A stretch of 17,270 nt of DNA from the NCBI GenBank assembly GCA_937942465.1, contig CALDEO010000058.1:1-17270 (forward strand), written 5' to 3'. Of this stretch, positions 448 to 17,085 are shown in pieces (position 1 is the first letter of the stretch; every line of letters begins with the position of its first letter). The DNA is from an uncultured Saprospiraceae bacterium (GTDB lineage Bacteria; Bacteroidota; Bacteroidia; Chitinophagales; Saprospiraceae). Both the position numbers and the translations under genes were made by a program. Below the pieces are notes generated by a model. That model worked only from the letters and a program-made list of their open reading frames with translations, made no database searches and had not been told where the DNA came from.

Positions 448-451
448 TGGT

Positions 452-895: not shown

Positions 896-949
896 CCTAC
901 GGTCTAGTCATTTGCGAAAGCTTGATAACTTAAATTAAATAGCTTTAAC

Positions 950-1579
950 CTAAGCTTGATAAGCACTCAATACGTCGTTGATACTTTGATAGATCGCTTC
1001 TTCTTTCTTTAACACATCAGCGATCTTGAGCCATTCCGCCTTAAGGATATCCTCTTCTAGTTGCGGTGTTAATGTCTGTTTTGTAGCTTTCATTTTGTAC
1101 CAATAAGACTTTTTGATTGCTCGCTTGCCCTGTCTTGTTCGATACATGTGTTTTGTAACGATTAGTTTTTTGCCTAATTCTATATTTTGTATTCCAGTTT
1201 CTTCTTCTACTTCACGTACAGCAGCATCTTTTTTAGATTCTCCTTCGTCGATTTTACCTTTCGGTAAATCCCAAAACCCACGTCTAAAAATAAATAACAA
1301 TTCACCTAGTTCATTTTCTACAACACCACCTGAAGCCTTTACAATCTTAAACAACTCTTTAAGATCAGTTTTAAGTGTTTCAAAATCTTTAGATTCTATA
1401 ATAACGACATCATGGTGCTGGGCCTTCTCCATCATATCTATATGCTGCAGCAACACCTTAGTTTTGCCCATATACCTAGATCTTAAAATTTTCTTTCCAG
1501 TATAAATCTGTAACAACGTTTCGGTATCCGTGTCATTACAGATGATTAAAGGTTTTTCGTTGATGTATACTTTATACAT
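950..1579 (-). CDS. Nudix hydrolase
   Basis: A Nudix (nucleoside diphosphate-X) hydrolase. The full Nudix box GX5EX7REVEEETGI is present, beginning at the GKIDEGE segment (nucleotides about 1258-1190 on the minus strand), so the Mg-binding REVEEE helix is intact. About 75 residues before the catalytic domain form a separate N-terminal part. I place the start at the ATG at 1579 (MYKVYINEKPL), because this is how relatives in Bacteroidota typically begin; the open frame extends to an ATG at 1681, but the extra 34 residues (MVLNWSVKTL...) look like translated leader. The gene diverges from pyrE, a neighbour pair I recall as frequent in this phylum. It converges on the GNAT gene with 54 bases between. 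Substrate unknown. Confidence 0.88.
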   Translation of the reverse strand: MYKVYINEKPLIICNDTDTETLLQIYTGKKILRSRYMGKTKVLLQHIDMMEKAQHHDVVIIESKDFETLKTDLKELFKIVKASGGVVENELGELLFIFRRGFWDLPKGKIDEGESKKDAAVREVEEETGIQNIELGKKLIVTKHMYRTRQGKRAIKKSYWYKMKATKQTLTPQLEEDILKAEWLKIADVLKKEEAIYQSINDVLSAYQA

Positions 1580-1762
1580 TTCTATTTGGTTAAATCTGCG
1601 CTTATTGAGTAAGTATAATACAATACAAATAACGTCATTTTTATTTAGTTGTAGTGTTTTAACACTCCAATTGAGCACCATATGTCTAATATTATGGTTG
1701 ACTCAAAATAGAAAGAAACCCATGCAGCGTTTAAATTAAAACGTATCAATGTTCTTAAGTCC

Positions 1763-1793
1763 TTTGCTTATAAGCTAGTATATAGTACCTTTG
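1763..1793 (+). promoter_or_regulatory. Bacteroidota-type promoter of pyrE (-33 TTTG, -7 TACCTTTG)
   Basis: TTTG at 1763-1766, a 19-base spacer, then TACCTTTG at 1786-1793. This matches the primary sigma factor consensus of Bacteroidota (TTTG, about 19 bases, TAnnTTTG) exactly. Transcription would start near 1800, giving a leader of about 23 bases before the pyrE ATG at 1823, too short for an attenuator or riboswitch. Confidence 0.8.
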
Positions 1794-1822
1794 CAGCGCT
1801 TAAATGAGAAGATATTACTACT

Positions 1823-2461
1823 ATGAATTACGTTACTGAGGTTGCTAAAAAGTTACTAGAAATAAAAGCGATTAAGCTAAGTCCGCAAGCGCCATTTACT
1901 TGGGCTTCTGGTTTGCAATCCCCTATATATTGTGATAACCGTATCAGCCTCAGTCATGTAGAGACTAGAGACCTGATAAAAGAAGGTCTTGCTCAACTGA
2001 GTAGTGAGCTAGGTAATTTTGATATAATAGCCGGTGTAGCTACTGCGGGTATTGCACATGGAGCTTTGCTAGCAGACTACATGCATAAGCCATTTGCTTA
2101 TGTAAGAGCACAGGCCAAAGGACATGGTAGACAAAATCAAATAGAAGGTGAAATAAAACCAGGACAAAAAGTATTGGTAATTGAAGATCTTATCTCTACT
2201 GGAGGTAGTAGCGTTGCGGCTATAAATGTTCTCAAAGAAGCAGGTCATGAGGTCGTTGGTGTTTTAGCCATATTTACGTATGGTTTTGATATTGCTAAAG
2301 AAAATTTTGCAGCAGCAGAAATTAAGTTCCAGACCCTAACTGACTATGATAGCTTAATAATGTTTGCTCAGAAGGAGGACTATGTAAGCAATGCAGAATT
2401 AACAACATTAACAGAATGGAATAAAGACCCCAAAGCATGGTCTGACAATCAATCTAAATAA
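1823..2461 (+). CDS. pyrE: Orotate phosphoribosyltransferase
   Basis: PyrE joins orotate and PRPP to make orotidine 5'-monophosphate, the fifth step of de novo pyrimidine synthesis, in the cytoplasm. The 212-residue length is normal. The PRPP-binding motif is VLVIEDLISTGGSS (117-130), with the acidic pair E121-D122 and the TGG loop. The flexible catalytic loop is KGHGRQNQIEG (99-109). The N-terminal FTWASGLQSPIYCDNR (25-40) is the usual orotate-side segment. The ATG lies about 23 bases after the predicted transcription start, and no Shine-Dalgarno sequence is seen, as is normal in this phylum. The M42 peptidase gene follows after 20 bases and is probably co-transcribed. Confidence 0.97.
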   Translation: MNYVTEVAKKLLEIKAIKLSPQAPFTWASGLQSPIYCDNRISLSHVETRDLIKEGLAQLSSELGNFDIIAGVATAGIAHGALLADYMHKPFAYVRAQAKGHGRQNQIEGEIKPGQKVLVIEDLISTGGSSVAAINVLKEAGHEVVGVLAIFTYGFDIAKENFAAAEIKFQTLTDYDSLIMFAQKEDYVSNAELTTLTEWNKDPKAWSDNQSK

Positions 2462-2481
2462 AAGGATAACAAAGAAGATAT

Positions 2482-3561
2482 ATGGCTATAATTAATAAAG
2501 CATCAGAACAATTTTTAAAGAAATACCTTAATAATGCTTCACCTACTGGGTTTGAAGTTGAAGGTCAAAAATTGTGGTTAGACTATATCAAACCATACAT
2601 TGATGAGTGGCACATTGACAACTATGGCACTGCATATGCTGTGATCAATCCTGGAAAGGAGTTTAAAGTTGTAATTGAAGGTCATGCAGATGAAATATCA
2701 TGGTTTGTTAATTATATAACGGATGATGGATTCATTAATGTAATTCGTAATGGTGGATCGGATCACTCTATTGCACCGAGTAAACGTGTTAATATCCATA
2801 CCGAAAATGGATTTGTCAAAGGTGTATTTGGATGGCCAGCTATTCATACTCGTAAAGGGAAAAATGCCAATATGGCCCCTACTATCGAAAACATCTTCAT
2901 TGATGTTGGAGCAAAAGACAAAGAAGAAGTACTTAAGATGGGTATACATGTAGGTTGTGTCATCACATATGAAGATGAAATGACTGTGCTCAACGATAGA
3001 TACTATGTCGGACGTGCTCTTGATAATAGAATGGGTGGGTTCTGTATTGCAGAAGTTGCGAGACTACTGCACAAAAACAAGAAAAAGCTTCCTTATACCC
3101 TCTACATAGTAAATGCGGTACAAGAAGAAATCGGTCTACGTGGAGCTCAAATGATCGCAGATACGATCAAGCCTAATGTAGCTATCGTAACAGATGTATG
3201 TCACGATACTAGTACTCCATTGGTCAATGTGAAAATTCAAGGTGATACTAAGGCAGGTCTAGGACCGGTACTGACTATTGCTCCAGCAGTTCACAATATA
3301 TTACTGCAGTTGATCAGAGATACAGCTGACAAAAAGAAGATACCATATCAATTATCGGCTTCATCTAGAAGCACAGGTACAGATACGGATGCATTCGCTT
3401 ATAGTAATGGTGGTGTACCATCAGTGTTGATCTCATTGCCACTTAGGTATATGCATACGACTGTGGAAATGGCTCATAAAAATGATGTTACTAACGTTAT
3501 TAAGCTTATGTATGAAAGCTTACTCAACATCAAGAAAAACCACAACTTCAAGTATCTTTAA
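2482..3561 (+). CDS. M42 family metallopeptidase (glutamyl aminopeptidase / TET-like)
   Basis: A cytoplasmic di-metal aminopeptidase of family M42, whose members usually form large tetrahedral (TET) complexes and trim peptides. At 359 residues it is standard length. Metal and catalytic residues can be placed: H68 and D70 in EGHADEISW, the bridging D181 in RALDNRMGG, E215 (general base) and E216 in QEEIGLRGA, D238 in VTDVCHDT, and H325 in LRYMHTTVE. All look intact, so it should be active. Older annotations often call such proteins endoglucanase or cellulase M; the peptidase call is better supported. It sits 20 bases after pyrE with no visible promoter of its own. Confidence 0.93.
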   Translation: MAIINKASEQFLKKYLNNASPTGFEVEGQKLWLDYIKPYIDEWHIDNYGTAYAVINPGKEFKVVIEGHADEISWFVNYITDDGFINVIRNGGSDHSIAPSKRVNIHTENGFVKGVFGWPAIHTRKGKNANMAPTIENIFIDVGAKDKEEVLKMGIHVGCVITYEDEMTVLNDRYYVGRALDNRMGGFCIAEVARLLHKNKKKLPYTLYIVNAVQEEIGLRGAQMIADTIKPNVAIVTDVCHDTSTPLVNVKIQGDTKAGLGPVLTIAPAVHNILLQLIRDTADKKKIPYQLSASSRSTGTDTDAFAYSNGGVPSVLISLPLRYMHTTVEMAHKNDVTNVIKLMYESLLNIKKNHNFKYL

Positions 3562-3619
3562 TCGCAACGAATACAAACTTGATTAAGTACTTTCTGTTGT
3601 AAACACATCATATGTTTTT

Positions 3620-3675
3620 AAACCAGACTCTATAATCCTAAGTGTTTAATAACTTAGTAGTATAGAATCTGGTTT
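3620..3675. repeat. Long imperfect inverted repeat (about 23-bp arms)
   Basis: Outer arms AAACCAGA (3620-3627) and TCTGGTTT (3668-3675) pair perfectly, and the inner 15 bases of each arm (3628-3642 and 3653-3667) pair at 12 of 15 positions around a 10-base loop. It lies in the 169-base gap between the M42 peptidase and the UbiA-like gene. Neither strand has a T-run right after the stem, so it is not a classic intrinsic terminator; it could still end the pyrE transcript, act on the RNA, or be a small palindromic intergenic element. Confidence 0.6.
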
Positions 3676-3706
3676 CAAGAATTGTTGAATATTACTGTTA
3701 CAACTA

Positions 3707-3720
3707 TTATCAATTGATAA
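3707..3720. promoter_or_regulatory. 14-bp perfect palindrome before the UbiA-like gene (possible operator)
   Basis: TTATCAATTGATAA is a perfect palindrome ending 10 bases before the TTG start at 3731. Its position suggests an operator or an RNA element near the start, but AT-rich DNA produces such palindromes by chance and no regulator is identified. Confidence 0.3.
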
Positions 3721-3730
3721 ACTTGGCGTC

Positions 3731-4582
3731 TTGGGTATTTTTCGCTCCTTGGTTAATTTCTATCTATACAGCAACTTGCATATCGCTATTTGTTGTCTAG
3801 CAATAGTTATTTTTACTCAAGTAGCTATGAATGCTAATTTAGACGTTACCTACATTTCATTTATATTTTCTGGTACACTATGCTTATATGCAATACATAG
3901 ACTTATAGGTATAAGAAACCTACCTACCGAGAGCATTACCAGCAGATTTGAAGTTATAATGAAGTATAACTTGCATATCACAGTATATGCAGCTGCAGCT
4001 GGGGTCATGACACTTTTATATTTTTATAAGCTAGATGTTACTCAGAAGTATCTATCAATAATACCAATACTCTTAAGTGCCGCATACGTACTTCCGATCT
4101 TACCTGGTGGTAAAAGGCTACGTGACGTTCCCCTTATCAAGATTTTTCTTATCGCTATATGTTGGTCTTTATTTACCTGTATTATTCCACTTTGGGGTAC
4201 TGTACAGCCAGCGCTATTAGCTATTTTGGCTATCGAGAGAGCTTTGTTTTTACTAGCTATTACGATACCTTTTGATATCAGAGATCAGGAGATCGATAAT
4301 AGACAAGGAGTCAAGACTATTGCCACTTCATTAGGTAAGCATACTTCCCAGCTCATTGCTTATTATGCGTTTTTTATTGCTGCTTCTATATTACTTTGGA
4401 GTAAGTATAATTCATTAATCACTGGTTTCTATTTCTTTCCATTGGTGGTTACGTATATCATAGGAGTACTATTAGTCTCTAAAACTTCACAATCAAGAAG
4501 TGATTTTTATTTTACGGGTTGGGTTGATGGTTTGTTGATTATACCCATTATCGTAGCTAGTCTTTTAAAAAGCTTCAGCTAG
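3731..4582 (+). CDS. UbiA-like prenyltransferase family membrane protein
   Basis: A 283-residue inner-membrane protein with about eight or nine hydrophobic segments, related to the UbiA superfamily of prenyltransferases, which attach isoprenoid chains to aromatic acceptors. The second Asp-rich motif is present as FDIRDQEIDNRQGVKTIA (181-198; D182, D185, D188), the best family marker. The first motif (usually NDxxDxxxD) is not found; the equivalent place reads YAIHRLIGIR (53-62). Without it, Mg-prenyl diphosphate binding is doubtful, so it may have a changed function. The start is a TTG at 3731: an in-frame stop lies at 3686-3688, no ATG occurs between, and the first internal ATG (residue 33) would cut into the first helix. 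It converges on a GNAT gene 72 bases away. Confidence 0.72.
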   Translation: MGIFRSLVNFYLYSNLHIAICCLAIVIFTQVAMNANLDVTYISFIFSGTLCLYAIHRLIGIRNLPTESITSRFEVIMKYNLHITVYAAAAGVMTLLYFYKLDVTQKYLSIIPILLSAAYVLPILPGGKRLRDVPLIKIFLIAICWSLFTCIIPLWGTVQPALLAILAIERALFLLAITIPFDIRDQEIDNRQGVKTIATSLGKHTSQLIAYYAFFIAASILLWSKYNSLITGFYFFPLVVTYIIGVLLVSKTSQSRSDFYFTGWVDGLLIIPIIVASLLKSFS

Positions 4583-4654
4583 ATATACATACGTTAATCC
4601 TGCAATATAATGTGATGTAATACTTTAAGTATGAATTGAATTTTACTTTGGGGC

Positions 4655-5095
4655 TTAGTTGATTCTCTTCTCCATTTTATAGTGAGGTAATCCTACTTCC
4701 AAGAATTCTTCACCCACAATGTGATAGTCAAGTTTTAAGTAAAACTTCTGTGCCACTTCTCTAGCATGTAATACGATAGTCTTGTAATTTTTATGTTTAG
4801 CGAAAGCTTCACAATAATTGACTAGAATCTTACCAATACCATTGCCTTGCATGCTCGCTGCAACAGCAACTTGACGCATTTTAATGATATTCCCATCAAT
4901 GGGCTTGAGTATCATTGTACCTACAAGAGAGGTTCCTACAAAAGCGCCAATGTGATAAGAATCCCATTCCTGAGATATCTGACCAGGAGTAAAACTCATG
5001 TTTATGGGCTTCCGTAATATCGCATCACGCAAGTCTAAATTAAGATCAAATAAAGGAGAATAAAAATCAATAAGAGAACAATGTATGGTAGGCAT
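4655..5095 (-). CDS. GNAT family N-acetyltransferase
   Basis: A 146-residue acetyltransferase of the GNAT fold. The acetyl-CoA loop is MRQVAVAASMQGNGIGKIL (73-91), with Q83, G84, G86 and G88 as the (R/Q)xxGxG signature. The C-terminal half LHAREVAQKFYLKLDYH (109-125) and EFLEVGLPHYKME (130-142) follows the pattern of the small ElaA/YitH-like GNAT branch, where HARE and LPHxKM are conserved. It begins 12 bases after the stop of the DUF4249 lipoprotein gene on the same strand, so the two probably share a transcript, though no functional link is evident. Substrate unknown. Confidence 0.88.
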   Translation of the reverse strand: MPTIHCSLIDFYSPLFDLNLDLRDAILRKPINMSFTPGQISQEWDSYHIGAFVGTSLVGTMILKPIDGNIIKMRQVAVAASMQGNGIGKILVNYCEAFAKHKNYKTIVLHAREVAQKFYLKLDYHIVGEEFLEVGLPHYKMEKRIN

Positions 5096-5107
5096 TAAGT
5101 CTATAGA

Positions 5108-6034
5108 TTAAAGCTCAAACAACGTTTGGGAATAACCACCGAAAATACCATATCCACCCTCTACATTAGAGAATATCTCTAATGGTGTGGTTTGGTTGGA
5201 GTTGACATTGTCATTCAGTTTATAATACTCGATAGATTTAGAGTAATTATATAAATCTTCTGAGACTGACATAATACGTAACATAACCTTGCCATTCTGT
5301 ACACTAGTTGTGTCCCCATTAGTAGATTTATCAAAATCTTCATAAGTTATAAAACTACTACTGAGGCTACCAGAAGATTGTCCATTGTGTACCTGAAATA
5401 TTTTTGTCTGAAGATTATCTGAGTCATTAACTCTATCTGTATCCGAAGATGTAGAGCTAAGCCATTGTGCTTCAAGCCATCCTTCAACACTAAATGGATT
5501 ATTACCTTTCACAGATCTATTCGTATTAACGATGTCGTAAATGAGGAAATCGGAAGTGTTATTATTATCGTTATCAATTGTAAGATCAAACTGTAGTGCT
5601 TGCCCTTGTGTATGATAGACTGTAGTAGTGTCGTACAGTGTAATATCTACTTTATCAGGAATAGCGTTGGAGGCATATACGGAGGGAAATCCATCGGCAT
5701 GAGCTTCTAAAAAGTAAGTCTTATTCTCTTCTGGATAATAATTGTAAGCAATGTATTGACCATTTTCTGAATGATACATTGTTCTAACAGAGTCTAAAGG
5801 ATCATCGGTGCTAATAAATACATTAGCATAGTTGACTGACTCAATATTGTGCTTGTCACTACCTAAACTTCCAGTTTTACTCAGATGTATCGTAAACACA
5901 GAATCTGGGTTGAATGTAGAATTAACAACAAGCTTAGACTCAAAAGACCCATACTCAATATCAATATCTCTTTGACATGATGTAATAACACCAATCAATA
6001 TAAATAAAAACAGTATGACCTTTAGATCTTTCAT
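5108..6034 (-). CDS. DUF4249 domain-containing lipoprotein
   Basis: A 308-residue predicted lipoprotein. The N-terminus is a lipoprotein signal with a hydrophobic core (about 4-17) and lipobox VITSC, giving a mature Cys at residue 20. The rest is beta-rich and low in helix, with segments such as SKLVVNSTFNPDSVFTIHLS (33-52) that match the start of DUF4249 proteins. In Bacteroidota these usually lie directly downstream of a TonB-dependent receptor of the type found at 14419-17085 and are thought to act with it at the outer membrane. Here the receptor is on the same strand but about 8.4 kb upstream, with four genes between. The divergent gap to the dikinase-like gene holds two palindromes. DUF4249 assignment is from sequence memory; ligand unknown. 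Confidence 0.75.
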   Translation of the reverse strand: MKDLKVILFLFILIGVITSCQRDIDIEYGSFESKLVVNSTFNPDSVFTIHLSKTGSLGSDKHNIESVNYANVFISTDDPLDSVRTMYHSENGQYIAYNYYPEENKTYFLEAHADGFPSVYASNAIPDKVDITLYDTTTVYHTQGQALQFDLTIDNDNNNTSDFLIYDIVNTNRSVKGNNPFSVEGWLEAQWLSSTSSDTDRVNDSDNLQTKIFQVHNGQSSGSLSSSFITYEDFDKSTNGDTTSVQNGKVMLRIMSVSEDLYNYSKSIEYYKLNDNVNSNQTTPLEIFSNVEGGYGIFGGYSQTLFEL

Positions 6035-6163
6035 TACCGTCTAAAAATACAATTAAGACTTGATAAAGACAAGTTATTGAATGGCTAAGTTAATTTTATA
6101 CAAAACTTTAACAAAGTGTCTGCTCAGTACGCAATATATGTTAAGTTAATCAGTTTCAAAAAG

Positions 6164-6177
6164 TTGATTTAAATCAA
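6164..6177. promoter_or_regulatory. Perfect FNR/CRP-type palindrome in divergent intergenic region
   Basis: TTGATTTAAATCAA is a 14-bp perfect palindrome and matches the FNR consensus TTGATnnnnATCAA at all ten fixed positions. Its centre (6170.5) is within one base of the midpoint between the two divergent start codons (6034 and 6308), so one bound regulator could act on both genes. No regulator gene is in the window, and AT-rich DNA raises the chance of a random match. Confidence 0.45.
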
Positions 6178-6231
6178 AATTTGGTCAATTAGAATTTTTA
6201 TTGGATCTTCTGTGTTATGGAATGGGATGAG

Positions 6232-6253
6232 GGTTTAATTTAAATATTAAACC
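6232..6253. promoter_or_regulatory. Inverted repeat upstream of the dikinase-like gene (possible operator)
   Basis: Arms GGTTTAAT (6232-6239) and ATTAAACC (6246-6253) are perfect complements around a 6-base AT spacer. The repeat ends 54 bases before the ATG at 6308, where a promoter or operator is expected. It has no following T-run, so a terminator is unlikely. Confidence 0.4.
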
Positions 6254-6307
6254 GACCAAAAGGCTACTTAATATTGTCTATATCACATAACTATAGAATA
6301 ACCATTT

Positions 6308-9202
6308 ATGACCTTACATTTTAAAACTTCGGTATTCCTTTTCACTTGCATTATTCTTATGGTACCGTCTGTGTCAAAAACTCAGGGTTATAGTAATGAA
6401 CAGATTAGGAATTATATACAATCTTGGAAAGACTATAATAGAGGACCTTATAAAGATATTAAGTGGTTTTGCGATGATAACACTATTCGTGAAGCCAGGG
6501 ACCCTTGTCCTGAGCCATTAAAAGGAAAACAACATGCAAGGTATGCTCCTGAAGTTGAAGAATTAGCAGCTAAAAATCATTTATTTTTTGGGCAGATACT
6601 CACATATACCGACAAAGATGATTTTTGGGATGAACCTAATGATCATAGTCGACTCAAACAATATCAGATAGAGCAATTTTTATTTAATGCTGATAATGGA
6701 TGGATACATCAACAATCTCAGTTTTATAGGGGTGCCAAACAAATTGAAGACGAAAAAGAATGGGGACAAGCATTTCTGGAGAAAATAAGCCGTTCTAATA
6801 AGGCTTTCAGCGAGGAATACTTACTACTGAGACTGGCAGCTAGAGATATACCTCACGGAGAGGACACTGATGAAACTCAAAGAATCAGAGCATATTCTAA
6901 GTATCTAGGCGATGATTACAACCCTTTTTTCGATTTAAGAATAAAGCTCCACAACAATCCAGAAAAATCCGATTTGACGAAAGTCATAAATTTTAAGGAA
7001 AAACATTATACTAAGCTTAATCAATCTCAGAAGGACTGGCTAGACAAATTAATAACTGATATGAAGGCTTATTATCAGAATTTTGATGTACAACAAATCA
7101 GCAGCTATGCTCGATTTATGCCTAAGGAGTCACAATTGTTTAAGTTACTAAATGAATCAACTACATCACTTACAGATGTGTCACCCAAACTGCGTGCAAT
7201 GGCCTTGTCAGAGCTCATATATAGTCTGCGTGAAAACTGGAAAGATACTCAATGGGATGTTGCTAGAATAAAGCTATTAGACCTTACTGTCGAAATTGAG
7301 AAACAATTGATACGGGATCTTGCTGAGTGGGAAACGACTACCCTCTCTGAGTTACGTGATAAAATCTGTTATACAACTAAAGCACTTGCTGGTGCAGGAT
7401 ACATAGAGTCATGGGAGTATGACTTGCTTGTTAATGATATCAATTGGCTATATGGTACGGCGGTATCTCGGTCGGATCTTATGTTTTATCGTAAATCTGC
7501 ACAGAAAACGATACAATGGGGAAGTCAAAGGTTGACTGCCATATACATGACCGATGTGAATAACTACATTGAATTTGAACCACTTACTAAAGGTTTTCTA
7601 GATGATAAAATACGAAGTACCTTGTTGTTGTCTTACGGTAATACGCTTGCAGAGTTGAATGAACTCATCATCACGAATCTTGATTACAAAGCAGAAGTAT
7701 TAGGCATCAATAAGCCCGGTCTCATATCAGGGCTTAATCCGGGTTATGCCAAAGGTAAGTTGATCGTTAAGTCAGAAGTAAAAGAAGATGAACATCTCAA
7801 TAGCAATTATATATATGCCTTTAATAGACCACCAGCAGACTTGAGTCCTGTAGCGGGCATCCTATCAGTGGAAGCAGGAAACCCTGTCTCACATGTACAG
7901 TTGCTTGCAAGGAATCTTGCGATCCCAAATGCAGTGATAGGAGCCGATCTTTTAGAAAAATTAGAGAAGTACGATGGTAAAGAAATATTCTATGCAGTAT
8001 CAGAGGATGGATATGCCAGACTAAAGCTTGCATCTGATATGTCTACAGATGAAAATAAACTATTTGAAGACAAACAGAAAAACAGAAAGAAATTAAAAAT
8101 CAGTACTGAACGATTGGTTTTTAATCCAGATAGTCTTTTGGATATGTCAAAGATTGGTTCAGAAGTTTCGGGAGTCTGGTGTGGACCCAAAGCCGCTAAT
8201 CTGGGTCAGTTAAAAAAACTATATCCTACCATGGTTGTGGAAGGGATCGTTATACCTTTCGGAATATTTAAAGACCATTTAGAACAAGATATACCTTCCA
8301 TAGGTGAAACGTATTGGACTTTTCTTCATAGAATATTTACAGAGAAAGAAGCAATGGAATCGCAAGGGATTGATCAGTCAGAGATTGATTGTATCGTGTT
8401 GCAAGAGTTAGCACTGTTTAGAGATCTCATATTAGAAATCCCATTAAAAGATTCATTTGTAAAGACGTTGACCGGATCGTTTACTGATATTCTTGGAAAA
8501 CCAATGGGTGATGTACCGGTGTTTTTAAGATCAGATACCAACATGGAAGATCTACCAGAGTTTACAGGTGCCGGTCTCAATCTTACATTATTTAATGTGC
8601 TACAAAAAGAAAAAATCCTTAACGGAATCAAGAAAATATGGGCTTCACCATTTCAAGAAAGAAGCTATCGATGGAGACAGAGTTATCTCGCCAACCCTGA
8701 AGACGTCTACCCTAGCATACTCATTATACCTAGTGTCAATGTTGACAAATCTGGTGTCATAATAACTGATGCATACCAGGAAAATGGCATTTCTACAGTA
8801 TCATTTAGTAGAGGTGTAGGTGGAGCCGTGGATGGACAGTCTGCAGAGACCTATAGATTGTATGCCAATGGATATAATGAACTTACATTTCCAGCAAGAG
8901 AGGGACTGTATCGAACAATACCCCCATCAGGAGGGTCTATAATAGAGACTGCTAATTTTTTAGAACCTGTATTATCTTCTGCGGAGCTGAATCAACTAAA
9001 AACCCTCATATCCAGTGTAAAGGAAAAAATGTTAGCAAATCTTAACGAAAAAGGTCCTTGGGATATCGAATTAGGTTTTAAAGATGGTGAAATTTGGCTT
9101 TTTCAGATTCGCCCATTTGTAGAAAACAAATCGGCGTTGCAATCTGAATATCTAAAGACACTAAATCCTGATCTTGGGAATGAGCCAGTAGCTATTGACT
9201 AG
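6308..9202 (+). CDS. Secreted dikinase-like protein (phosphohistidine + PPDK_N ATP-binding domains)
   Basis: A 964-residue protein with a clear Sec signal peptide (hydrophobic core about 9-22, likely cut near residue 26). Residues about 30-460 are largely helical and match nothing I recognise; C56 and C67 could form a disulfide. Residues about 470-575 are a PEP-utilising-type swivelling domain with the phosphohistidine loop AGNPVSHVQLLARNLAIPNA (523-542; H529). Residues about 615-940 are a PPDK_N-type ATP-binding domain: CGPKAANLGQLKKL (625-638), PVFLRSDTNMEDLPEFTGAG (737-756), and a C-terminal segment with D919, E921, Q933 and R935 whose spacing equals that of the PPDK nucleotide-site residues D321/E323/Q335/R337. 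The PEP/pyruvate TIM barrel is absent. The His-then-ATP-domain order is that of glucan/phosphoglucan water dikinases, not PEP synthase. Likely chemistry: ATP to phosphohistidine to an unknown acceptor. A serine hydrolase gene follows after 20 bases. Confidence 0.8.
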   Translation: MTLHFKTSVFLFTCIILMVPSVSKTQGYSNEQIRNYIQSWKDYNRGPYKDIKWFCDDNTIREARDPCPEPLKGKQHARYAPEVEELAAKNHLFFGQILTYTDKDDFWDEPNDHSRLKQYQIEQFLFNADNGWIHQQSQFYRGAKQIEDEKEWGQAFLEKISRSNKAFSEEYLLLRLAARDIPHGEDTDETQRIRAYSKYLGDDYNPFFDLRIKLHNNPEKSDLTKVINFKEKHYTKLNQSQKDWLDKLITDMKAYYQNFDVQQISSYARFMPKESQLFKLLNESTTSLTDVSPKLRAMALSELIYSLRENWKDTQWDVARIKLLDLTVEIEKQLIRDLAEWETTTLSELRDKICYTTKALAGAGYIESWEYDLLVNDINWLYGTAVSRSDLMFYRKSAQKTIQWGSQRLTAIYMTDVNNYIEFEPLTKGFLDDKIRSTLLLSYGNTLAELNELIITNLDYKAEVLGINKPGLISGLNPGYAKGKLIVKSEVKEDEHLNSNYIYAFNRPPADLSPVAGILSVEAGNPVSHVQLLARNLAIPNAVIGADLLEKLEKYDGKEIFYAVSEDGYARLKLASDMSTDENKLFEDKQKNRKKLKISTERLVFNPDSLLDMSKIGSEVSGVWCGPKAANLGQLKKLYPTMVVEGIVIPFGIFKDHLEQDIPSIGETYWTFLHRIFTEKEAMESQGIDQSEIDCIVLQELALFRDLILEIPLKDSFVKTLTGSFTDILGKPMGDVPVFLRSDTNMEDLPEFTGAGLNLTLFNVLQKEKILNGIKKIWASPFQERSYRWRQSYLANPEDVYPSILIIPSVNVDKSGVIITDAYQENGISTVSFSRGVGGAVDGQSAETYRLYANGYNELTFPAREGLYRTIPPSGGSIIETANFLEPVLSSAELNQLKTLISSVKEKMLANLNEKGPWDIELGFKDGEIWLFQIRPFVENKSALQSEYLKTLNPDLGNEPVAID

Positions 9203-9222
9203 ACCTCACAACGATAAAAATC

Positions 9223-10473
9223 ATGAAACGACTATATATATTATTCCTTTTCCTTATTGGCAGTTCTACATCATATGCCTACCCTATCGATGGATATAAT
9301 TATACTCACATTGATCGATTGTCATATTTATACAAGCAATTTCTAGTTGATTCTAATAGTGTAAAACTAGAAAATGGGGCCTTGTGGATGATGGAGGATA
9401 TTGAACTTTCGCTTGTTGACGATAAGTCTAAATTAGAAAATTATTTTGAGGAAAATAAAGATCTTGATAAAGCAGTAAGTAGTTTGTTTAGGCAACTAGA
9501 AACTCCTTATTCCTTCTCGGTAATAGATTATAGCGACCACAATAATATTAAATATGGATCGCATCGTGATGAAGTACAATACCAACCAGGAAGTGTTGGC
9601 AAACTTGCTATTATGATTGCTTTCTTTACAGAGTTGGATGAAGTCTATGATGGTGACTGGGACGAGATGCGAGGTATACTTAACAGTAAGTTTGTGACAG
9701 CCGAAAAATGGGCTATACCTAATCATCACACCGTGCCTTTCTATGATAGCAAAAAAGATAAAATCTATAAACGTAAAGTAATTGCTAGCGATCAATTTAG
9801 TTTATATGAGTGGCTTGACCATATGGTCTCTGTAAGCTCTAATGCAGCAGCAAGTATCATGTGGAGAGAGGCGGTAATATTACGTGCTTTTGGAGATAGA
9901 TATGAATGTGTATCTGATTCTGAAATTAAAAGTTTCTTTGATAATACACCCAAGTCTATATTGTCAGATATTGCTATAGATGTAGTCAACTGTCCTCTTA
10001 CTACTATGGGTATCGAATCTGATGAATGGAGATTAGGTAGCTTTTTTACATCAGGATCAGATCAATATATCCCACCTAAAGGAGGCAGCACAGGTACAAC
10101 TAAGGGTTTATTAAAGTTCTTAGTACAACTTGAAAAAGGAACTGTTGTGAGTGAACGAGCATCACTTGAAATGAAACGATTAATGTATTTGACAGATCGT
10201 CGGATTAGGTACGCTAGAGCTAACTCGCTTGATGATAGTGCCGTATATTTTAAGAGTGGTAGTTATTATAGTTGTAAAGCAGAAGCTGGATTTACTTGCA
10301 GTAATTATGCTGGCAATCGCTTTAACTACATGAATAGTATTGCAATGGTTGAGACTAAGAAAGGACGTAAATATATGGTGTCGTTAATGTCAAATGTATT
10401 GCGTAAAAACAGTGTAAATGAACATCTGAGGTTGGCTAATCAGATCGATAGACTATTGAATGACTTGGAATAG
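9223..10473 (+). CDS. Secreted serine hydrolase, class A beta-lactamase fold
   Basis: A 416-residue exported protein (signal peptide 1-19, SYA before the probable cut) of the beta-lactamase / penicillin-recognising superfamily. The three active-site motifs are in order: SVGK (S124, K127) as SxxK, SSN (205-207) as SxN, and KSG (344-346) as KTG. I see no ExxLN segment holding the deacylating Glu of true class A beta-lactamases, so a transpeptidase, esterase or carboxypeptidase-like role is more likely than antibiotic resistance. C351 and C359 flank the loop after KSG and may form a disulfide, fitting an exported protein. About 85 residues precede the hydrolase domain. It lies 20 bases after the secreted dikinase-like gene and converges on the translocase-like gene with 20 bases between, so it is probably co-transcribed with the dikinase. 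Confidence 0.82.
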   Translation: MKRLYILFLFLIGSSTSYAYPIDGYNYTHIDRLSYLYKQFLVDSNSVKLENGALWMMEDIELSLVDDKSKLENYFEENKDLDKAVSSLFRQLETPYSFSVIDYSDHNNIKYGSHRDEVQYQPGSVGKLAIMIAFFTELDEVYDGDWDEMRGILNSKFVTAEKWAIPNHHTVPFYDSKKDKIYKRKVIASDQFSLYEWLDHMVSVSSNAAASIMWREAVILRAFGDRYECVSDSEIKSFFDNTPKSILSDIAIDVVNCPLTTMGIESDEWRLGSFFTSGSDQYIPPKGGSTGTTKGLLKFLVQLEKGTVVSERASLEMKRLMYLTDRRIRYARANSLDDSAVYFKSGSYYSCKAEAGFTCSNYAGNRFNYMNSIAMVETKKGRKYMVSLMSNVLRKNSVNEHLRLANQIDRLLNDLE

Positions 10474-10493
10474 ATTGAGATCTAAAGCAACGA

Positions 10494-13202
10494 TTATGAT
10501 ACTCTACGTAATGCAGGTCCATTTCTTAATTCAAATTTTTTGAACCGTCTATCTGTTATCAACGCTAATAATGTCGAGTCGTTAGATTCTAAGATATAAG
10601 ACTTGGCTTTATCTCTTACTAGATAGTTTTTTTGATACAGAAGATGAGTCAATGCACTCTTTAATTGTTCCTTATTTGCTCTTTTATCTTCTATTGGTTT
10701 GGAAGTATAATTTTTGTTGATTACCACTTCTAACATAGGTAAGAAGCTCTTTTTGATTTTGTACTCTAGTATGTCGTCCAAAAAATCCAAGGCAATAGAC
10801 TTTTTTTGCATATCAGGCTTGGATAAGTTTCTGAATACCATATCCATATCTTCCAAATTGTGACTAATTCCTAGAAAGGTAAAGCATTGCAGGACGCTTT
10901 TTTGAATAAGTAAATTCTGAACTCTCAATAGACGCTTTACGTCAAATGCATTTCCTAAACCTACTTGACTGTGAAGACTCTTCATAGATTCGATGTGCTT
11001 TCGCAAGTTAGATATTTCCAACATGAGCCCTCTATTAACAATATTACGTTGATAGTCAAGATTAGGAAATTGACTATTCATTTCATGTACTGATTTGAGA
11101 GCCTCATTTCTTAACCGCCATCTGCCATGTTTTAGTAGTTTAAATAATGTATTCGTTGATTTTTGTAGAGGTATCATCGCAAGTATATGCGGCCAACCCA
11201 GCATATAGCTTTTGTATCCGCCAAGTAAGCCATTCTCTATATGCTGCACTGTACGAAGGCCATAACATGCCAACGCTTCATAGCATAAATGTTGATATTG
11301 AATATCCTTGGACAATTTAAATAAGAGTAACCCAAAGCTCTTGAATGTTCCGTGTTTAGATGCTCTAATAGCACTTTTGGTAAATTCAGGTGCAAGAGGT
11401 GTTTTTAAATACTGTGTAATTAATGGGTATAAAGTTATAATTCTACATTTAACGATTGCCTCCATTAAGTACAACTTAAGAGCAGCTCTATCTTCATGCT
11501 TTTCTTGGTAGACTAATTCCCAAAAGGACTTTATTCTAAGAGGTAAATTAATCCGACCTCTAGTTGCATAATTATGACTTATTTCGTCTGCCAGCGTTCG
11601 ATAAAAAATCGCTTGTGACCTCAAAGTGAATCTAGGTAATAATCCAATTATTATTTGCTCTGGCTCAAGGTACTTTAAGAATACAGAATAGATGCTGTCA
11701 AGTACTTGATCATCAGGGTCATTTAAGTGAGATTCTAGAATATGTTGAATATCACTAAAATCGTAAAAATCAATTCTTTCGACACATGCAATCCTTATTG
11801 ATGCTGTAGGATGAGATAAGTGATTTTGTAATTCCGATATGCTATATGTAATCGTTAGATCATTGAGTTTAGAAAGTAATTTATTGCTTTGCTTGTCATG
11901 AGGATCTACGGATTGCTTATGACCATTTGCTCCAGTAATCTTTCTTTTAAAAGAGCTTGAGTATGACAGCTGTAATCTACGTAACTGCCACAACCATATT
12001 ACGGAGATCAACACCACCAATGCCGTAAGAGCATACACTGGCAATGATAGTACAGTGAGCATACTCAATAACAATATCCCAGCTAAACCTGTGGCAAGAC
12101 TATCTATCACTAAATCAATAAAATTTTTAGCTTCGTTTTTGATCTCTTTTGGCAGAGACATCATCGAAAGCTCTGATGATGACTTGTACACTGATTGTTT
12201 CAGAATTCCGTCGCTACCTTTTAAGAGAACTGCAAATATCAACACAGGTGATATGAGAAATAGGATAGCAAATAAAAAGATTGATATCGGAAATATACTC
12301 ATACTCTGAACTACACCAAAGCGCTTGACTATACGTGAACTCAAAAAGAACTGAACGATGAGCGAGAAAACATTGAAAGATGATAAACAAATTCCTAAAA
12401 AGGCAGTCAGTTTTGTTTCATCTGGGAATGCTTCGATAGCTACGGTATTGAATTGGTAATCGACAAGTTTAGATAATAATACACCAATGCCCAATACAAT
12501 TGCCAAATTAGTAACATGTTTAAATTTGAAAATATGAAATGAACTAGAAATCGTAGGTCCTGATGACACAAACTTTTCTTCAACTGGCGACTTAAGACTG
12601 CGAATAACAATTCTGTACAGAAAATAACAAGACAGCAAAGAGATAGAAGCGATAAAGAACAATCCACTATTGCCTATAAAAGGAACCAAAATACTTGCTG
12701 TATATCCGCCAAATATTCCTCCAGCTATAGCACCAGACCCAATCGGTCCGAAAACTCTTTTGGCTTGACGCAAATTAAAAGCTTCATTACATAGTTGCCA
12801 AAACTGTGTGGCTAGTACCAAAGCGAATATGGCGATATATATATAACTTAAGTATGCAAATACTGATACTCCAATACCAAGATAGAATAGACCTCCAAAT
12901 GAAAGTAGTATCACTACATGAAAAAGACATGTTATCTTAATGAGCTTATGTAGAGAAGTTCTTTTACGTACGTAATCAATCAAATAATGTGTACCTACAG
13001 CTGTTAATGCAATAACAATGAATGCTGAGGGTAACGTTTTGATACCATATACCGTAAGAAATATTGAGGTTACCGCTGGCTTGAGTAGAAGCAGAGAAAA
13101 TATGATCAGAAATATAATACTTTGTAAAGACAATACTAATCTGAACTCCCCATCTCTGAGGTCCATATTTCTAATAAGCCACTGTTTAAAACTACCTATC
13201 AC
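10494..13202 (-). CDS. ATP/ADP translocase-like (NTT/MFS) membrane protein with C-terminal HEAT-like repeats
   Basis: A 902-residue protein. Residues about 20-410 contain about 12 transmembrane helices with features of nucleotide (NTP/NDP) transporters: QFWQLCNEAFNLRQAKRVFG (133-152), which matches the FWxxxNxxxxxxxAKRxF signature, and GILKQSVYKSSSELSMMSLP (332-351) followed by NEAKNFIDLVIDSLATGLAG (356-375). After a linker (about 412-445) the rest, about 450 residues, is an alpha-helical solenoid of HEAT/armadillo type, probably cytoplasmic. Classic translocases of Chlamydia and Rickettsia lack this tail; HEAT-fused relatives occur in free-living bacteria with unproven substrates. The start is GTG at 13202, since MDLRDGEFRL (13-22) is the usual pre-helix segment. 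A hairpin lies 29 bases upstream. Same strand as the serine hydrolase at 13291, 88 bases apart. Confidence 0.78.
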   Translation of the reverse strand: MIGSFKQWLIRNMDLRDGEFRLVLSLQSIIFLIIFSLLLLKPAVTSIFLTVYGIKTLPSAFIVIALTAVGTHYLIDYVRKRTSLHKLIKITCLFHVVILLSFGGLFYLGIGVSVFAYLSYIYIAIFALVLATQFWQLCNEAFNLRQAKRVFGPIGSGAIAGGIFGGYTASILVPFIGNSGLFFIASISLLSCYFLYRIVIRSLKSPVEEKFVSSGPTISSSFHIFKFKHVTNLAIVLGIGVLLSKLVDYQFNTVAIEAFPDETKLTAFLGICLSSFNVFSLIVQFFLSSRIVKRFGVVQSMSIFPISIFLFAILFLISPVLIFAVLLKGSDGILKQSVYKSSSELSMMSLPKEIKNEAKNFIDLVIDSLATGLAGILLLSMLTVLSLPVYALTALVVLISVIWLWQLRRLQLSYSSSFKRKITGANGHKQSVDPHDKQSNKLLSKLNDLTITYSISELQNHLSHPTASIRIACVERIDFYDFSDIQHILESHLNDPDDQVLDSIYSVFLKYLEPEQIIIGLLPRFTLRSQAIFYRTLADEISHNYATRGRINLPLRIKSFWELVYQEKHEDRAALKLYLMEAIVKCRIITLYPLITQYLKTPLAPEFTKSAIRASKHGTFKSFGLLLFKLSKDIQYQHLCYEALACYGLRTVQHIENGLLGGYKSYMLGWPHILAMIPLQKSTNTLFKLLKHGRWRLRNEALKSVHEMNSQFPNLDYQRNIVNRGLMLEISNLRKHIESMKSLHSQVGLGNAFDVKRLLRVQNLLIQKSVLQCFTFLGISHNLEDMDMVFRNLSKPDMQKKSIALDFLDDILEYKIKKSFLPMLEVVINKNYTSKPIEDKRANKEQLKSALTHLLYQKNYLVRDKAKSYILESNDSTLLALITDRRFKKFELRNGPALRRVS

Positions 13203-13231
13203 TCTTAAAAAGAATACAATTATTAAAATGG

Positions 13232-13259
13232 AATGCTGTTCTTTGAAAAGAACAGCATT
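13232..13259 (-). terminator. 13-bp perfect hairpin between serine hydrolase and translocase-like gene
   Basis: AATGCTGTTCTTT (13232-13244) and AAAGAACAGCATT (13247-13259) are perfect complements with a 2-base centre. On the minus strand the stem is followed by CCATTTTAATAATTG, a weak T-tract, so it may be an inefficient terminator or attenuator after the serine hydrolase. It ends 29 bases before the GTG of the translocase-like gene and could instead affect its translation or processing. Confidence 0.5.
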
Positions 13260-13283
13260 AGATAGCTCTAATGTCTTAAAAGC

Positions 13284-13300
13284 GAAACCTTTACGGTTTC
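13284..13300 (-). terminator. Small hairpin across the serine hydrolase stop codon
   Basis: On the minus strand GAAACC, GTAAA loop, GGTTTC, then GCTTTTAAG. The stop codon lies in the loop. The short stem plus four T residues resembles a weak intrinsic terminator, placed just before the stronger 13232-13259 hairpin. Confidence 0.35.
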
Positions 13301-14247
13301 ATGCTAATAACTTTTCTCTTCTTTGACATATTCATAATGTTGTTTGGAACAACACCATCCAAAGCCCGCTCAGCAGCATATACAAGATCTTTACAGATCT
13401 TGCCTCCACTTGCATCTTCAATTAATGCTACGAGAATATACTTTGTGCCATCTTCTTTTACAACCAATGCACTATCAGAGTGCCAATTTCTCCAAGATCC
13501 TGACTTTCTGTATATATCGCAATATGGATCAATCTTATCCAATGAATTTACAAATTTATGGTGTAGTTCAGGGTGTCCCATATATTGAAGCATTTCCTTA
13601 CTTCTCTCTGGATTTACTAATTTACCATATGCAAGCATTGTATAAAATCTACATACTTGATCCACAGTAGCAGCATGACTCAAACCTTTAATTGGGTCTG
13701 GTTTTTTTCTGCCACTAGCAGCATATTTTTTACCTACCCAGAGACCACCACCATTATTTCTATCATACAGTTTATAAGCATCTGATGTAAGCACTGTCGA
13801 AATCTTATCAAAACCAAGACGTTCTATCATTCTGGTAGTCGCTGCATTATTAGATTTTGCAATCATAAGTCTGAGATCTTTTTTGACTTCAGGAGATTCT
13901 ATCATCTCTCCTTTTTCTATTGCATCCATAGAAGCTAGCAACACGGCAATTTTTGGTAAACTTGCAGCATACATCATGTTGCCACCGTTAATAGAGACAT
14001 ATTTTACATTGAATGGGTCAGATAGATCTACTAACCCAACAGACATTCTCTTTGATCGAATTAATTTATTCCATTTTTTATTTTTCTTAATCTCATTTAG
14101 AAACTTCTTTTGCAATAAATGATCCTGCTGATTTGTAGGGTCTTTATAAATCTGCTCACTATATGGAAATGTAGTCAATCCTGCATATTGACCGCTAAGT
14201 AAAACCGCTGAAAATAATAAACTTAAAGTAAAAATTAATTGCTTCAA
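13291..14247 (-). CDS. Secreted serine hydrolase, class A beta-lactamase fold
   Basis: A 318-residue exported hydrolase of the beta-lactamase superfamily. A signal peptide covers about residues 1-20 (hydrophobic 4-18, SGQ at the likely cut). The motifs are SLPK (S96, K99), SNN (132-134) and KSG (248-250), followed by SWRNWHSDSALV (251-262). The segment LRLMIAKSNNAATTRMIERL (126-145) is the usual SxN helix. No ExxLN deacylation motif is seen, so I do not call it an antibiotic resistance enzyme; acting on a cell-wall or peptide substrate is more likely. The start is TTG at 14247: an in-frame stop lies 18 bases upstream and there is no ATG between, while TTG directly precedes KQLIFTLSLL of the signal peptide. 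A TATCTTTG -7 box lies about 38 bases upstream. It resembles the hydrolase at 9223 only in fold and motifs. Confidence 0.85.
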   Translation of the reverse strand: MKQLIFTLSLLFSAVLLSGQYAGLTTFPYSEQIYKDPTNQQDHLLQKKFLNEIKKNKKWNKLIRSKRMSVGLVDLSDPFNVKYVSINGGNMMYAASLPKIAVLLASMDAIEKGEMIESPEVKKDLRLMIAKSNNAATTRMIERLGFDKISTVLTSDAYKLYDRNNGGGLWVGKKYAASGRKKPDPIKGLSHAATVDQVCRFYTMLAYGKLVNPERSKEMLQYMGHPELHHKFVNSLDKIDPYCDIYRKSGSWRNWHSDSALVVKEDGTKYILVALIEDASGGKICKDLVYAAERALDGVVPNNIMNMSKKRKVISMKP

Positions 14248-14284
14248 TATAAAGTATGTATTAGTTTAACTCAATAAAGTCCCG

Positions 14285-14292
14285 CAAAGATA
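14285..14292 (-). promoter_or_regulatory. Predicted -7 box (TATCTTTG) for the minus-strand serine hydrolase
   Basis: Read on the minus strand this is TATCTTTG, an exact match to the TAnnTTTG -7 element of Bacteroidota, giving a leader of about 30 bases before the TTG at 14247. No TTTG is found at the matching -33 distance. It lies in the 171-base gap after the TonB receptor gene and suggests the serine hydrolase and translocase-like genes have their own promoter. Confidence 0.55.
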
Positions 14293-14418
14293 CATCATTT
14301 ATGATAAAATGTGTCTCTAATACACTCTCTATGTGTTAATTATACTTTAAAATGGTCTAAATTGAGAGACTTCAAATCAAATATAAAGTCATTAAACATT
14401 TTCTCAAGTTGATATTGA

Positions 14419-17085
14419 TTAATCTAAGAAAACATACTTTATACTAAAGCTTGGCATTATTGGAAATAAACTTATCTGTCTTAGGGTAGGAATACTTTTG
14501 CCTGGTTCTTGAAAAAGATATACATAGAACGGATTTAGTCTATTGTAAATATTATAAATACCAAATTGAAATTCCAATCTCTTGTCATCAAATCTCTTTA
14601 CATACTTAGCATCAAGATCAAGGTGATGAAAACTATTGAGTCGTTCTCTATTTCTACCTTCGCTGAAAGTAATGACATTACCTTCTATATCTAAATATTG
14701 GCTTGTGGCTAACGTAAATGCACTACCGCTACCATAAGAGAAATTAAGGTTAAATTGCCAGTTTTGTAAAGGCTTCCATCCTAAGTTTACTTTTATATCA
14801 TCGGGTCTATCGTATTGAGAAACAAATGGAGCACCATCATCTATTTCCTTGAAGGTATTACGAGCATATACATTGGAGTATGCTCCTTCAATTTTGAATT
14901 TACCAAATGACTGTTGAACAGCAAGCTCCCAGCCTCTTGATATCCCATCTCCAGATATAACACGACTTTGCCAATCTGTATTATTTTTGAATACTATTGG
15001 TGGGTTATCCTGATTTACAATCGAAAACAAAACATCCTGAGCACCACTATAATCTACTAAACCGGTTATGCTTTTACTAAAAACCGACACTGAAATATAG
15101 TCAATTAATAACTTTTTGGTTTCTAAGGTCAATGATATTTGGTTTGCTAACTTAGGTTTAATATCATCAGTAACTGGGACCCATAGGTCTGCCGGAAACC
15201 CACCTCCACCATTAGATAGAAGATGTAAATACTGCGCTGTATTACTATAGTTTAATCTAGTATGTACTCTATCTGACCACTCAGATAGGATACTTACTCG
15301 AGGCTCCCAATTGTCATAACTGGTAGATTGACTATCAAACCGACTATATCGCAATCCCATATTCAATTTAAATAGCTTGCTAATATGGTTTTTATATTCA
15401 CTAAAAGCCGCCCATTCCCTTGCTCCTATTAGTTGTATTTCTCCTAATATCTCTGTTGGACTCTGACTACCCTCTCGGATACTTTGCACTATTGCTGGTG
15501 AGTAAGAATGATCTATTAATTCAGCACCAAAACTCAATTTATCAAATTGGAACAAATATGAATCAAATTGAATAGACACTTTCCTATCTTTTATGGATGA
15601 TGATGATACAACATCCAATTGATTTCTTAGATTTTGAGCATCTTCTACTCTATCAGATATATAGGTAGCTTGAGATGTAATATTATATAATGATTGGCTT
15701 ACTAATACCTTCATCACTAGGTCATCAGACCATATTCTTTGATATTGAGCTCCACCGAGACGAGTACCCCAAGTTATCTTGTTGCGGTCAATAAATCCAT
15801 AATTACCAGCATCACCTAGGCTCTCTTCTATAGTTTCTAGGCTTATCTCATCATTACCCGTATATCCAAAAATATTTATCTCATCATTTTTGCTTAGTTG
15901 GAAATGGACATTACCACTGTAGTCATTGTATGCAATATTAATATCATCATATTGAATTACACTTTTGACTAATGGATTAATATATAATCCTAATATGGAC
16001 TGTCTCGCATTAAAATTAAAACTGACCTTATCTTTAACAATAGGTCCTTCGATATGTGTCATAAGTGCTGATAGGCTTGCTGCAACACTGGCTTCTGGTT
16101 TTAACTTATTACCGTTTTTAGTTTTAATATTAACTACCGATGAGAGTCTACCACCATACCTGGCAGGCATTCCACTCTTAAATAGCTCAATGTTTTGAAT
16201 ATTATCAGATTGTAATATGGATGATAAACCAGCTATATGGGACATTTCATACACAGGTACTCCATTGTATAAGTACAAGTTTTCATCTGGGGATCCTCCA
16301 CGTATTACCAAGCCTGTCTGCCCCTCTGCACCTGACTGAACCCCAGGTTTTTGACGCATTAAATTCAGTCCATTTTCATCACCAAGATATCCTCTTACAT
16401 GACCCACATCTTGAAATGCAATGACTCCATTATCACCTTCTATATCAGTAATATCTCTTACTATATTGGATTGTATAGTTACACCTAGTAATTCATTGTC
16501 TTTGCCAAGTCCGATGTCATTTCTTACTCCGACTGAGTTTAATTTTACTTTAGCAACTTGATATCCTAGATATTGCACTTTGATAGAATCAACCTTAGTC
16601 ACAATACTGTAGAACCCCTTGTCATCAGTGATCCCTATAGGTCTGTCATTCAAGGTAAGTATATATGCCCCAAACAGTTTCTCTTTAGATTCAATATCAT
16701 AGACTGACCCATAATGTCTCGTCAAAACTGGTTCTGGAATGTAGTTTTTACTTCTAAAGATTAGTATCTTATTTGAAGATCCACATGAATAAGATATCGG
16801 TTGGGTTTTAGCGATTTTTTCAAGAAGTACCTTAGCTGTAATATTACGAGCATTAAAAGAGAGCTGCTTTCTATTGTCAAGAATAGATGTACTGTAGCTA
16901 AAAGTTAAATTTTGTTGGGATTCAAACTGCTCCATTAATGAGATTATGGAGTATGATCTATCTTCTATACTTATGGAATAACTGAAGCAATCTTGACCTT
17001 GTATACAAGTCGCAACCATCATCACTATGATGACAGGTAATATTAGAATCTTTCTAAGTCGTATGTAACCTTTTGTAATTAGCAT
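14419..17085 (-). CDS. TonB-dependent receptor with STN and carboxypeptidase-regulatory-like domains
   Basis: An 888-residue outer-membrane active transporter. After a signal sequence (hydrophobic 12-28) comes an STN (secretin/TonB short N-terminal) domain at about 44-112, which in such receptors signals to a FecR anti-sigma factor. A carboxypeptidase-regulatory-like beta domain follows (about 124-200), then the plug (about 230-325) with VIRGGSPDENLYLYNGVPVY (260-279) and ELFKSGMPARYGGRLSSVVN (300-319), then the beta barrel to the C-terminus (ending YVFLD). No SusD follows, and this plug type is normally paired with a DUF4249 lipoprotein; the only one in view is at 5108-6034. The start ATG overlaps the end of fecR by 7 bases, implying translational coupling. 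Ligand unknown. Confidence 0.92.
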   Translation of the reverse strand: MLITKGYIRLRKILILPVIIVMMVATCIQGQDCFSYSISIEDRSYSIISLMEQFESQQNLTFSYSTSILDNRKQLSFNARNITAKVLLEKIAKTQPISYSCGSSNKILIFRSKNYIPEPVLTRHYGSVYDIESKEKLFGAYILTLNDRPIGITDDKGFYSIVTKVDSIKVQYLGYQVAKVKLNSVGVRNDIGLGKDNELLGVTIQSNIVRDITDIEGDNGVIAFQDVGHVRGYLGDENGLNLMRQKPGVQSGAEGQTGLVIRGGSPDENLYLYNGVPVYEMSHIAGLSSILQSDNIQNIELFKSGMPARYGGRLSSVVNIKTKNGNKLKPEASVAASLSALMTHIEGPIVKDKVSFNFNARQSILGLYINPLVKSVIQYDDINIAYNDYSGNVHFQLSKNDEINIFGYTGNDEISLETIEESLGDAGNYGFIDRNKITWGTRLGGAQYQRIWSDDLVMKVLVSQSLYNITSQATYISDRVEDAQNLRNQLDVVSSSSIKDRKVSIQFDSYLFQFDKLSFGAELIDHSYSPAIVQSIREGSQSPTEILGEIQLIGAREWAAFSEYKNHISKLFKLNMGLRYSRFDSQSTSYDNWEPRVSILSEWSDRVHTRLNYSNTAQYLHLLSNGGGGFPADLWVPVTDDIKPKLANQISLTLETKKLLIDYISVSVFSKSITGLVDYSGAQDVLFSIVNQDNPPIVFKNNTDWQSRVISGDGISRGWELAVQQSFGKFKIEGAYSNVYARNTFKEIDDGAPFVSQYDRPDDIKVNLGWKPLQNWQFNLNFSYGSGSAFTLATSQYLDIEGNVITFSEGRNRERLNSFHHLDLDAKYVKRFDDKRLEFQFGIYNIYNRLNPFYVYLFQEPGKSIPTLRQISLFPIMPSFSIKYVFLD

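Follow-up and report, generated by a model that had tools for sequence, protein, structure and literature searches.

A putative exported dikinase is encoded in a 17,270-nucleotide stretch of DNA from an uncultured Saprospiraceae bacterium (contig CALDEO010000058.1, positions 1 to 17,270, referred to below as the window), and comparison across genomes gives good support to its being part of a four-gene module. The other members are two serine hydrolases of the beta-lactamase fold, both of which also appear to be exported, and a membrane protein that joins an NTT/TLC fold to C-terminal HEAT repeats (NTT-HEAT). The four components are inherited together near-strictly. ATP-using enzymes would normally be expected only inside the cytoplasm, and the original prediction, made from the dikinase gene alone, had presented the enzyme as a puzzle for this reason. 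That reading of the dikinase is partly supported here, and the partners, which it did not consider, bear directly on the puzzle. We would give an even chance to the proposal that this is an envelope dikinase fed nucleotide by its own transporter, with an envelope acceptor on which the hydrolases act as well.

The four-gene neighbourhood and its inheritance

The neighbourhood was compared in 88 loci: 80 named loci, ranked highest among the 555 confirmed relatives, seven from further relatives (two of which repeat named ones) and the window. The dikinase gene (c0; 6308..9202, plus strand) is followed as the next same-strand gene by the first beta-lactamase-fold hydrolase in 84/88 loci, at a spacing of -4 to +12 bp in 60 of these 84. 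In the window this hydrolase (c1, 416 aa) lies at 9223..10473 on the plus strand, 20 bp behind the dikinase. A membrane protein of about 940 aa and a second beta-lactamase-fold hydrolase are each found in 64/88 loci, mostly convergent on the opposite strand; their window counterparts are the 902-aa c2 (10494..13202, minus strand, convergent with c1) and the 318-aa c3 (13291..14247, minus strand). Many of the missing partners correspond to contig or locus ends, and where 6 kb or more of downstream sequence is available (70 loci) the first hydrolase is present in 69, the membrane protein in 61 and the second hydrolase in 61. The order c0+ c1+ c2- c3- is seen in 57/88 loci; a rearrangement to c2+ c3- c0+ c1+ is found in three loci from Saprospiraceae. 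All four genes are also present in loci L029, L031, L036 and L049, which come from Formosa, Maribacter or Cellulophaga.

The association extends beyond the locus. Of 395 Bacteroidota genomes sampled across the phylum, 13 from 12 genera have the dikinase (E<=1e-50), and the first hydrolase (E<=1e-20) occurs in exactly the same 13. The second hydrolase was found in 13/13 dikinase genomes and in 0/23 others, hand-chosen among the remaining 382. Close NTT-HEAT proteins (at least 800 bits, one of them split over two contigs) are present in 11/13 dikinase genomes and in 0/382 others, where the best NTT match reaches 582 bits; when every NTT match at E<=1e-20 is counted, the figures are 13/13 and 24/382, respectively. 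Fisher p-values for these co-occurrences range from 4e-10 to 1e-24. The same pairing appears at closer range. Eight of 60 relatives have the dikinase (E<1e-200), and a close NTT-HEAT is confined to the same eight; of 92 genomes belonging to one family, two have the dikinase, and the same two have an NTT-HEAT above 1000 bits, the best other NTT-HEAT scoring 606 bits.

Co-inheritance is also seen where the genes are not neighbours. In 11 named genomes at least one partner is missing from the locus despite 6 kb of room, and all 11 of these genomes contain both the transporter and the second hydrolase; in one of these (L051) the first hydrolase is missing from the locus, the search elsewhere having covered the transporter and second hydrolase only. 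In one genome (G008) all four genes are scattered, at C1:547683, C1:309471, C1:397893 and C2:106580. The genes are dispersed yet not lost, which shows that the link is more than shared location.

On the minus strand to both sides of the module in the window lie genes for a DUF4249 protein (5108-6034) and a TonB-dependent receptor with a Plug domain (14419-17085). Such genes are often neighbours, so the module may be inserted between them.

The dikinase and the two serine hydrolases

The 964-aa ORF taken by the original prediction to be a gene is real. A protein search in which 7988 candidates were scored gave 529 relatives at E<=1e-3, and the 120 of these that were listed are full length, at 908-1021 aa. 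By sequence, the pattern is not one of chance, and the protein belongs to the PPDK_N/PEP-utilizer swivelling dikinase superfamily, which was already known. Pfam PPDK_N (PF01326) matches residues 626-947 with an E-value of 5.5e-20 and 72 bits (cut-off 27), and the ATP-grasp domain, assigned to residues 606-945 (8123..9142, plus strand), contains K628, R741, D919, E921 and Q933. This is preceded by a phosphohistidine swivel domain, residues 466-604 (7703..8119, plus strand), with its catalytic H529 encoded at 7892-7894 (plus strand). The PEP-utilizers profile PF00391 reaches only E 0.082 and 13 bits in the window protein, below its cut-off of 23.1, while across the family it matches 41/50 members at E<=1 (best 8.9e-4). 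The predicted arrangement of an H529 domain ahead of a C-terminal ATP domain holds.

The claim of intact ATP and His sites is also borne out. H529, K628, R741, D743, E747, D919, E921, Q933 and R935 are identical in 88/88 aligned sequences including the window, a set in which two repeats of the same loci leave 86 distinct. T760 is invariant in 50/50 dikinases and aligns with the threonine of rifampin phosphotransferase (Rph) that, according to the portion of PMC4844700 consulted, positions ATP along with a lysine and an arginine. Judged from these residues, the dikinase looks catalytically complete. The idea that catalysis has been lost and the protein serves as an envelope binding protein would suit an exported setting with no known ATP source, and is hardly credible given nine catalytic and ATP-site positions that never vary.

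The N-terminal region, residues 30-460 (6395..7687, plus strand), is a putative acceptor domain, delimited from an AlphaFold2 model, a 36-sequence alignment and cysteine counts. The model has a mean pLDDT of 83.6, with residues 81-458 helical and a short beta piece at 48-79, and neither it nor the Pfam scan of the window protein contains a TIM barrel. No hidden PEP/pyruvate domain was found in residues 30-460. The region stays unclassified, as first suggested: its profile has no convincing relative among solved structures, the best match being a phage sheath protein at E 0.018. Many polar residues of this region never vary across the 36 aligned sequences, as would be expected for a substrate pocket.

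PEP synthase and PPDK have PPDK_N and phosphohistidine domains in common with c0; unlike them, the window protein has no PEP/pyruvate TIM barrel, its domain order is reversed and it looks exported. As a rifampin phosphotransferase it scores 48 bits against an NCBIfam cut-off of 999. The domain order of Rph is ATP - RIF-binding - His, as given in the part of PMC4844700 seen, so that relative to the Listeria structure 5hv1 the blocks of c0 are circularly permuted to alpha domain - His - ATP; Rph also differs from c0 in lacking its exported-looking start and its partners. The alpha domain gave no match to its Rph counterpart in an hhalign comparison with one Rph sequence (probability 0.4).

Plant glucan and phosphoglucan water dikinases (GWD, PWD) place the His domain ahead of a C-terminal ATP domain, and GWD has an SHV motif at the catalytic His. 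Both features are shared by c0, and to this extent the likeness drawn by the original prediction stands. A special kinship is not supported, GWD1_pHisD (PF22973) giving weak matches in 6/50 members (best E 0.15). No starch- or glucan-binding module was found among 25 of the 31 Pfam families listed for the dikinase family. In its N-terminal region, its bacterial origin and its apparent export c0 differs from these enzymes.

The ATP domain also matches models of the prodigiosin ligases PigC and RedH (E 4.5e-13 and 5.8e-10). These matches, together with two partners of the beta-lactamase/PBP fold that would suit acyl transfer, favour an ATP-dependent ligase or condensing enzyme that leaves no stable phosphoproduct, with the hydrolases as partner transpeptidases. 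We consider this improbable, as the matches are confined to the shared ATP domain and are outscored by those to the top PEP synthase models (E 5.2e-20).

The architecture is not unique to c0. A second exported-looking PPDK_N family with His before ATP is present in the same genome (L022, 511-3942, on G000:C22) and at loci L012 and L013, with a signal-peptide-like start by eye and the His motif SHVNLRA preceding PPDK_N. It is about 28% identical to c0, in the His and ATP parts only, and differs at the N-terminus. L022 continues with a CARDB domain and an SprB-like stretch and L013 with a Por secretion tail (Por_Secre_tail), and both are possibly cell-surface dikinases. In the more distant L011 the His motif pattern was not seen. 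In the literature searched, we found no description of a dikinase subfamily that is exported and block-permuted and has an N-terminal region and fixed partners of its own.

The two hydrolases match PF13354 (Beta-lactamase2), c1 with an E-value of 8.5e-9 and c3 with 8.6e-20. They share with class A beta-lactamases and PBP-type serine hydrolases the SxxK, SxN and KSG motifs: S124-x-x-K127, S205-x-N207 and K344-S-G are invariant in 28 c1 sequences, and S96-x-x-K99, S132-x-N134 and K248-S-G in 27 c3 sequences. Neither window protein has an NCBIfam match at E<=0.01, and weak matches in their relatives reach at best E 3.5e-5 and 8.7e-5. As class A beta-lactamases both miss the NCBIfam cut-off of 200 bits (c1 has 11.5 bits, c3 no match), and a reading as PBP/beta-lactamase-fold enzymes is preferable to one as resistance enzymes. 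In its mature form the first hydrolase opens with a conserved N-terminal YPIDGY..TGI.RL motif, perhaps a docking segment. The second hydrolase is duplicated in tandem at L063 (13512-15413).

The NTT-HEAT membrane protein

The membrane protein c2 is made up of an NTT transmembrane domain, residues 1-423 (11934..13202, minus strand), and a HEAT-repeat domain, residues 434-895 (10518..11903, minus strand), the latter assigned from the HEAT_2 profile and a helical model. HEAT_2 is matched at E<=1 in 30/30 family members, with E 0.072 in the window protein. The TLC profile PF03219 matches 23/30 members at E<=1 (best 1.3e-12), and the family profile aligns to AtNTT1 with an E-value of 1.6e-12. The protein also has the NTT fold. 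In the sections of Major et al. 2017 (PMC5381601) available to us, NTT-HEAT fusions are described as occurring widely with no function assigned to them, and they combine, like c2, an NTT fold with C-terminal HEAT repeats. What sets c2 apart from these fusions at large is its place in a distinct subclass that goes with an exported dikinase.

Another NTT-HEAT lineage (L117-L121, L124-L127) has no module dikinase alongside, and several of its loci adjoin lipoprotein-like genes. Its partners by Pfam are a metallophosphoesterase and Omp85 at L124 and L125; at L117 two neighbours have no Pfam match. Some of these loci also carry a separate NTT of about 440-500 aa and a gene that looks by eye like a cNBD protein.

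Export, ATP supply and the proposed system

Export was assessed with a home-made rule requiring a hydrophobic core, charge and either small residues at -3/-1 or a lipobox. It is positive in 81/88 dikinases, 83/84 first hydrolases, 61/65 second hydrolases and 1/64 transporters, which suggests that the dikinase and both hydrolases are exported. The window dikinase is itself positive, with a signal-peptide-like N-terminus at residues 1-27 (6308..6388, plus strand), in keeping with the signal peptide first proposed. On five clusters resembling cytoplasmic enzymes the rule was positive in 0/52, and on two further clusters, typed by eye, it was positive in 3/12 (sensor-like) and 6/9 (membrane-transporter-like). 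C55 and C67 are kept in 87/88 dikinases, the remaining sequence having a gap there, and this pair would fit a disulphide outside the cytoplasm. Neither a cytoplasmic start, loss of ATP-site residues nor a concealed PEP/pyruvate domain was found, the first as judged by this simple rule. A misread start, or action before export, would instead place catalysis in the cytoplasm; the home-made nature of the rule, its many background positives and the seven negative dikinases lend this something, and it is very unlikely in view of the enzyme-like controls, the export-positive partners and the cysteine pair.

In the system we propose, the dikinase would be the catalytic centre of four envelope components. 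NTT-HEAT would transport a nucleotide, the likeliest mode being export of ATP in exchange for an incoming nucleotide or phosphate. Once in the periplasm, ATP would bind to the C-terminal domain and pass its beta-phosphate to H529, and the His domain would then swing to the N-terminal alpha domain, where an acceptor from the envelope, such as a glycan, a peptide or the head group of a lipid, would be phosphorylated or activated. The binding, transfer and swing follow by analogy with Rph and PPDK; the envelope acceptor, the action of the hydrolases on it and the delivery of ATP are inferred from export and co-inheritance. Preparing, trimming or re-linking that acceptor may be the task of the two serine hydrolases. 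By the usual MFS topology the HEAT domain would lie on the cytoplasmic side, where it may be a regulator or docking surface.

Several points weigh against this proposal, which draws on sequences and models. The export rule is also positive in 200/617 background ORFs of at least 200 aa, and the signal peptides rest on that simple rule. The His domain has no significant match to that of Rph (hhalign probability 0.6, one Rph sequence). The genome searches scored at most two first-look candidates per genome for the dikinase and NTT and at most four for the first hydrolase, and the genomes are related, so that Fisher p-values, which ignore kinship, overstate significance. In two of the 13 dikinase genomes (G239, G255) the dikinase and both hydrolases stand side by side, but a close NTT-HEAT is absent and the NTT relatives, located elsewhere, are all more distant. 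PF03219 has no match in the window's own transporter. Charged residues K155, E245, E385 and K527 are important in AtNTT1, and K527 for triphosphate transport, as stated in the portions of PMC4256464 and PMC10654386 consulted. Unlike NTT nucleotide transporters, c2 appears, in an alignment mapped by hand, to have three of the four replaced: K155 by a hydrophobic residue (in a stretch aligned without significance), E245 by alanine and K527 by T371, with the E385 position alone keeping an acid, D248. ATP was still transported by two microsporidian NTTs in which three of these four positions are changed; those changes leave K527 intact.

Loss of the K527-type lysine is unfavourable to classical triphosphate exchange, and it is possible that ATP reaches the envelope otherwise, leaked or environmental, while NTT-HEAT imports a product that the hydrolases and dikinase set free, such as AMP, another nucleotide or a phosphorylated compound, in scavenging or recycling. 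A steady-state level of periplasmic ATP in E. coli, which has no ATP/ADP translocase, is reported in the part of PMC7432876 seen, and the existence of the second exported-looking dikinase family, with its surface-protein domains (CARDB, SprB, Por_Secre_tail), may also favour this idea. It explains less directly the strict pairing with one NTT-HEAT subclass, and we regard it as unlikely. That NTT-HEAT instead exports ATP to power an exported dikinase modifying the envelope, as a dedicated periplasmic supply line, is put forward tentatively, at somewhat below an even chance.

The route by which ATP enters the periplasm is described as unclear in the same portion of PMC7432876. If the proposal is true, it could explain how some free-living Gram-negative bacteria get ATP across their inner membrane, and would provide NTT-HEAT fusions with a first partner and a possible role. 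Through the co-inherited set, both periplasmic ATP and NTT-HEAT function become accessible to experiment in Formosa, Maribacter, Cellulophaga and similar marine flavobacteria.
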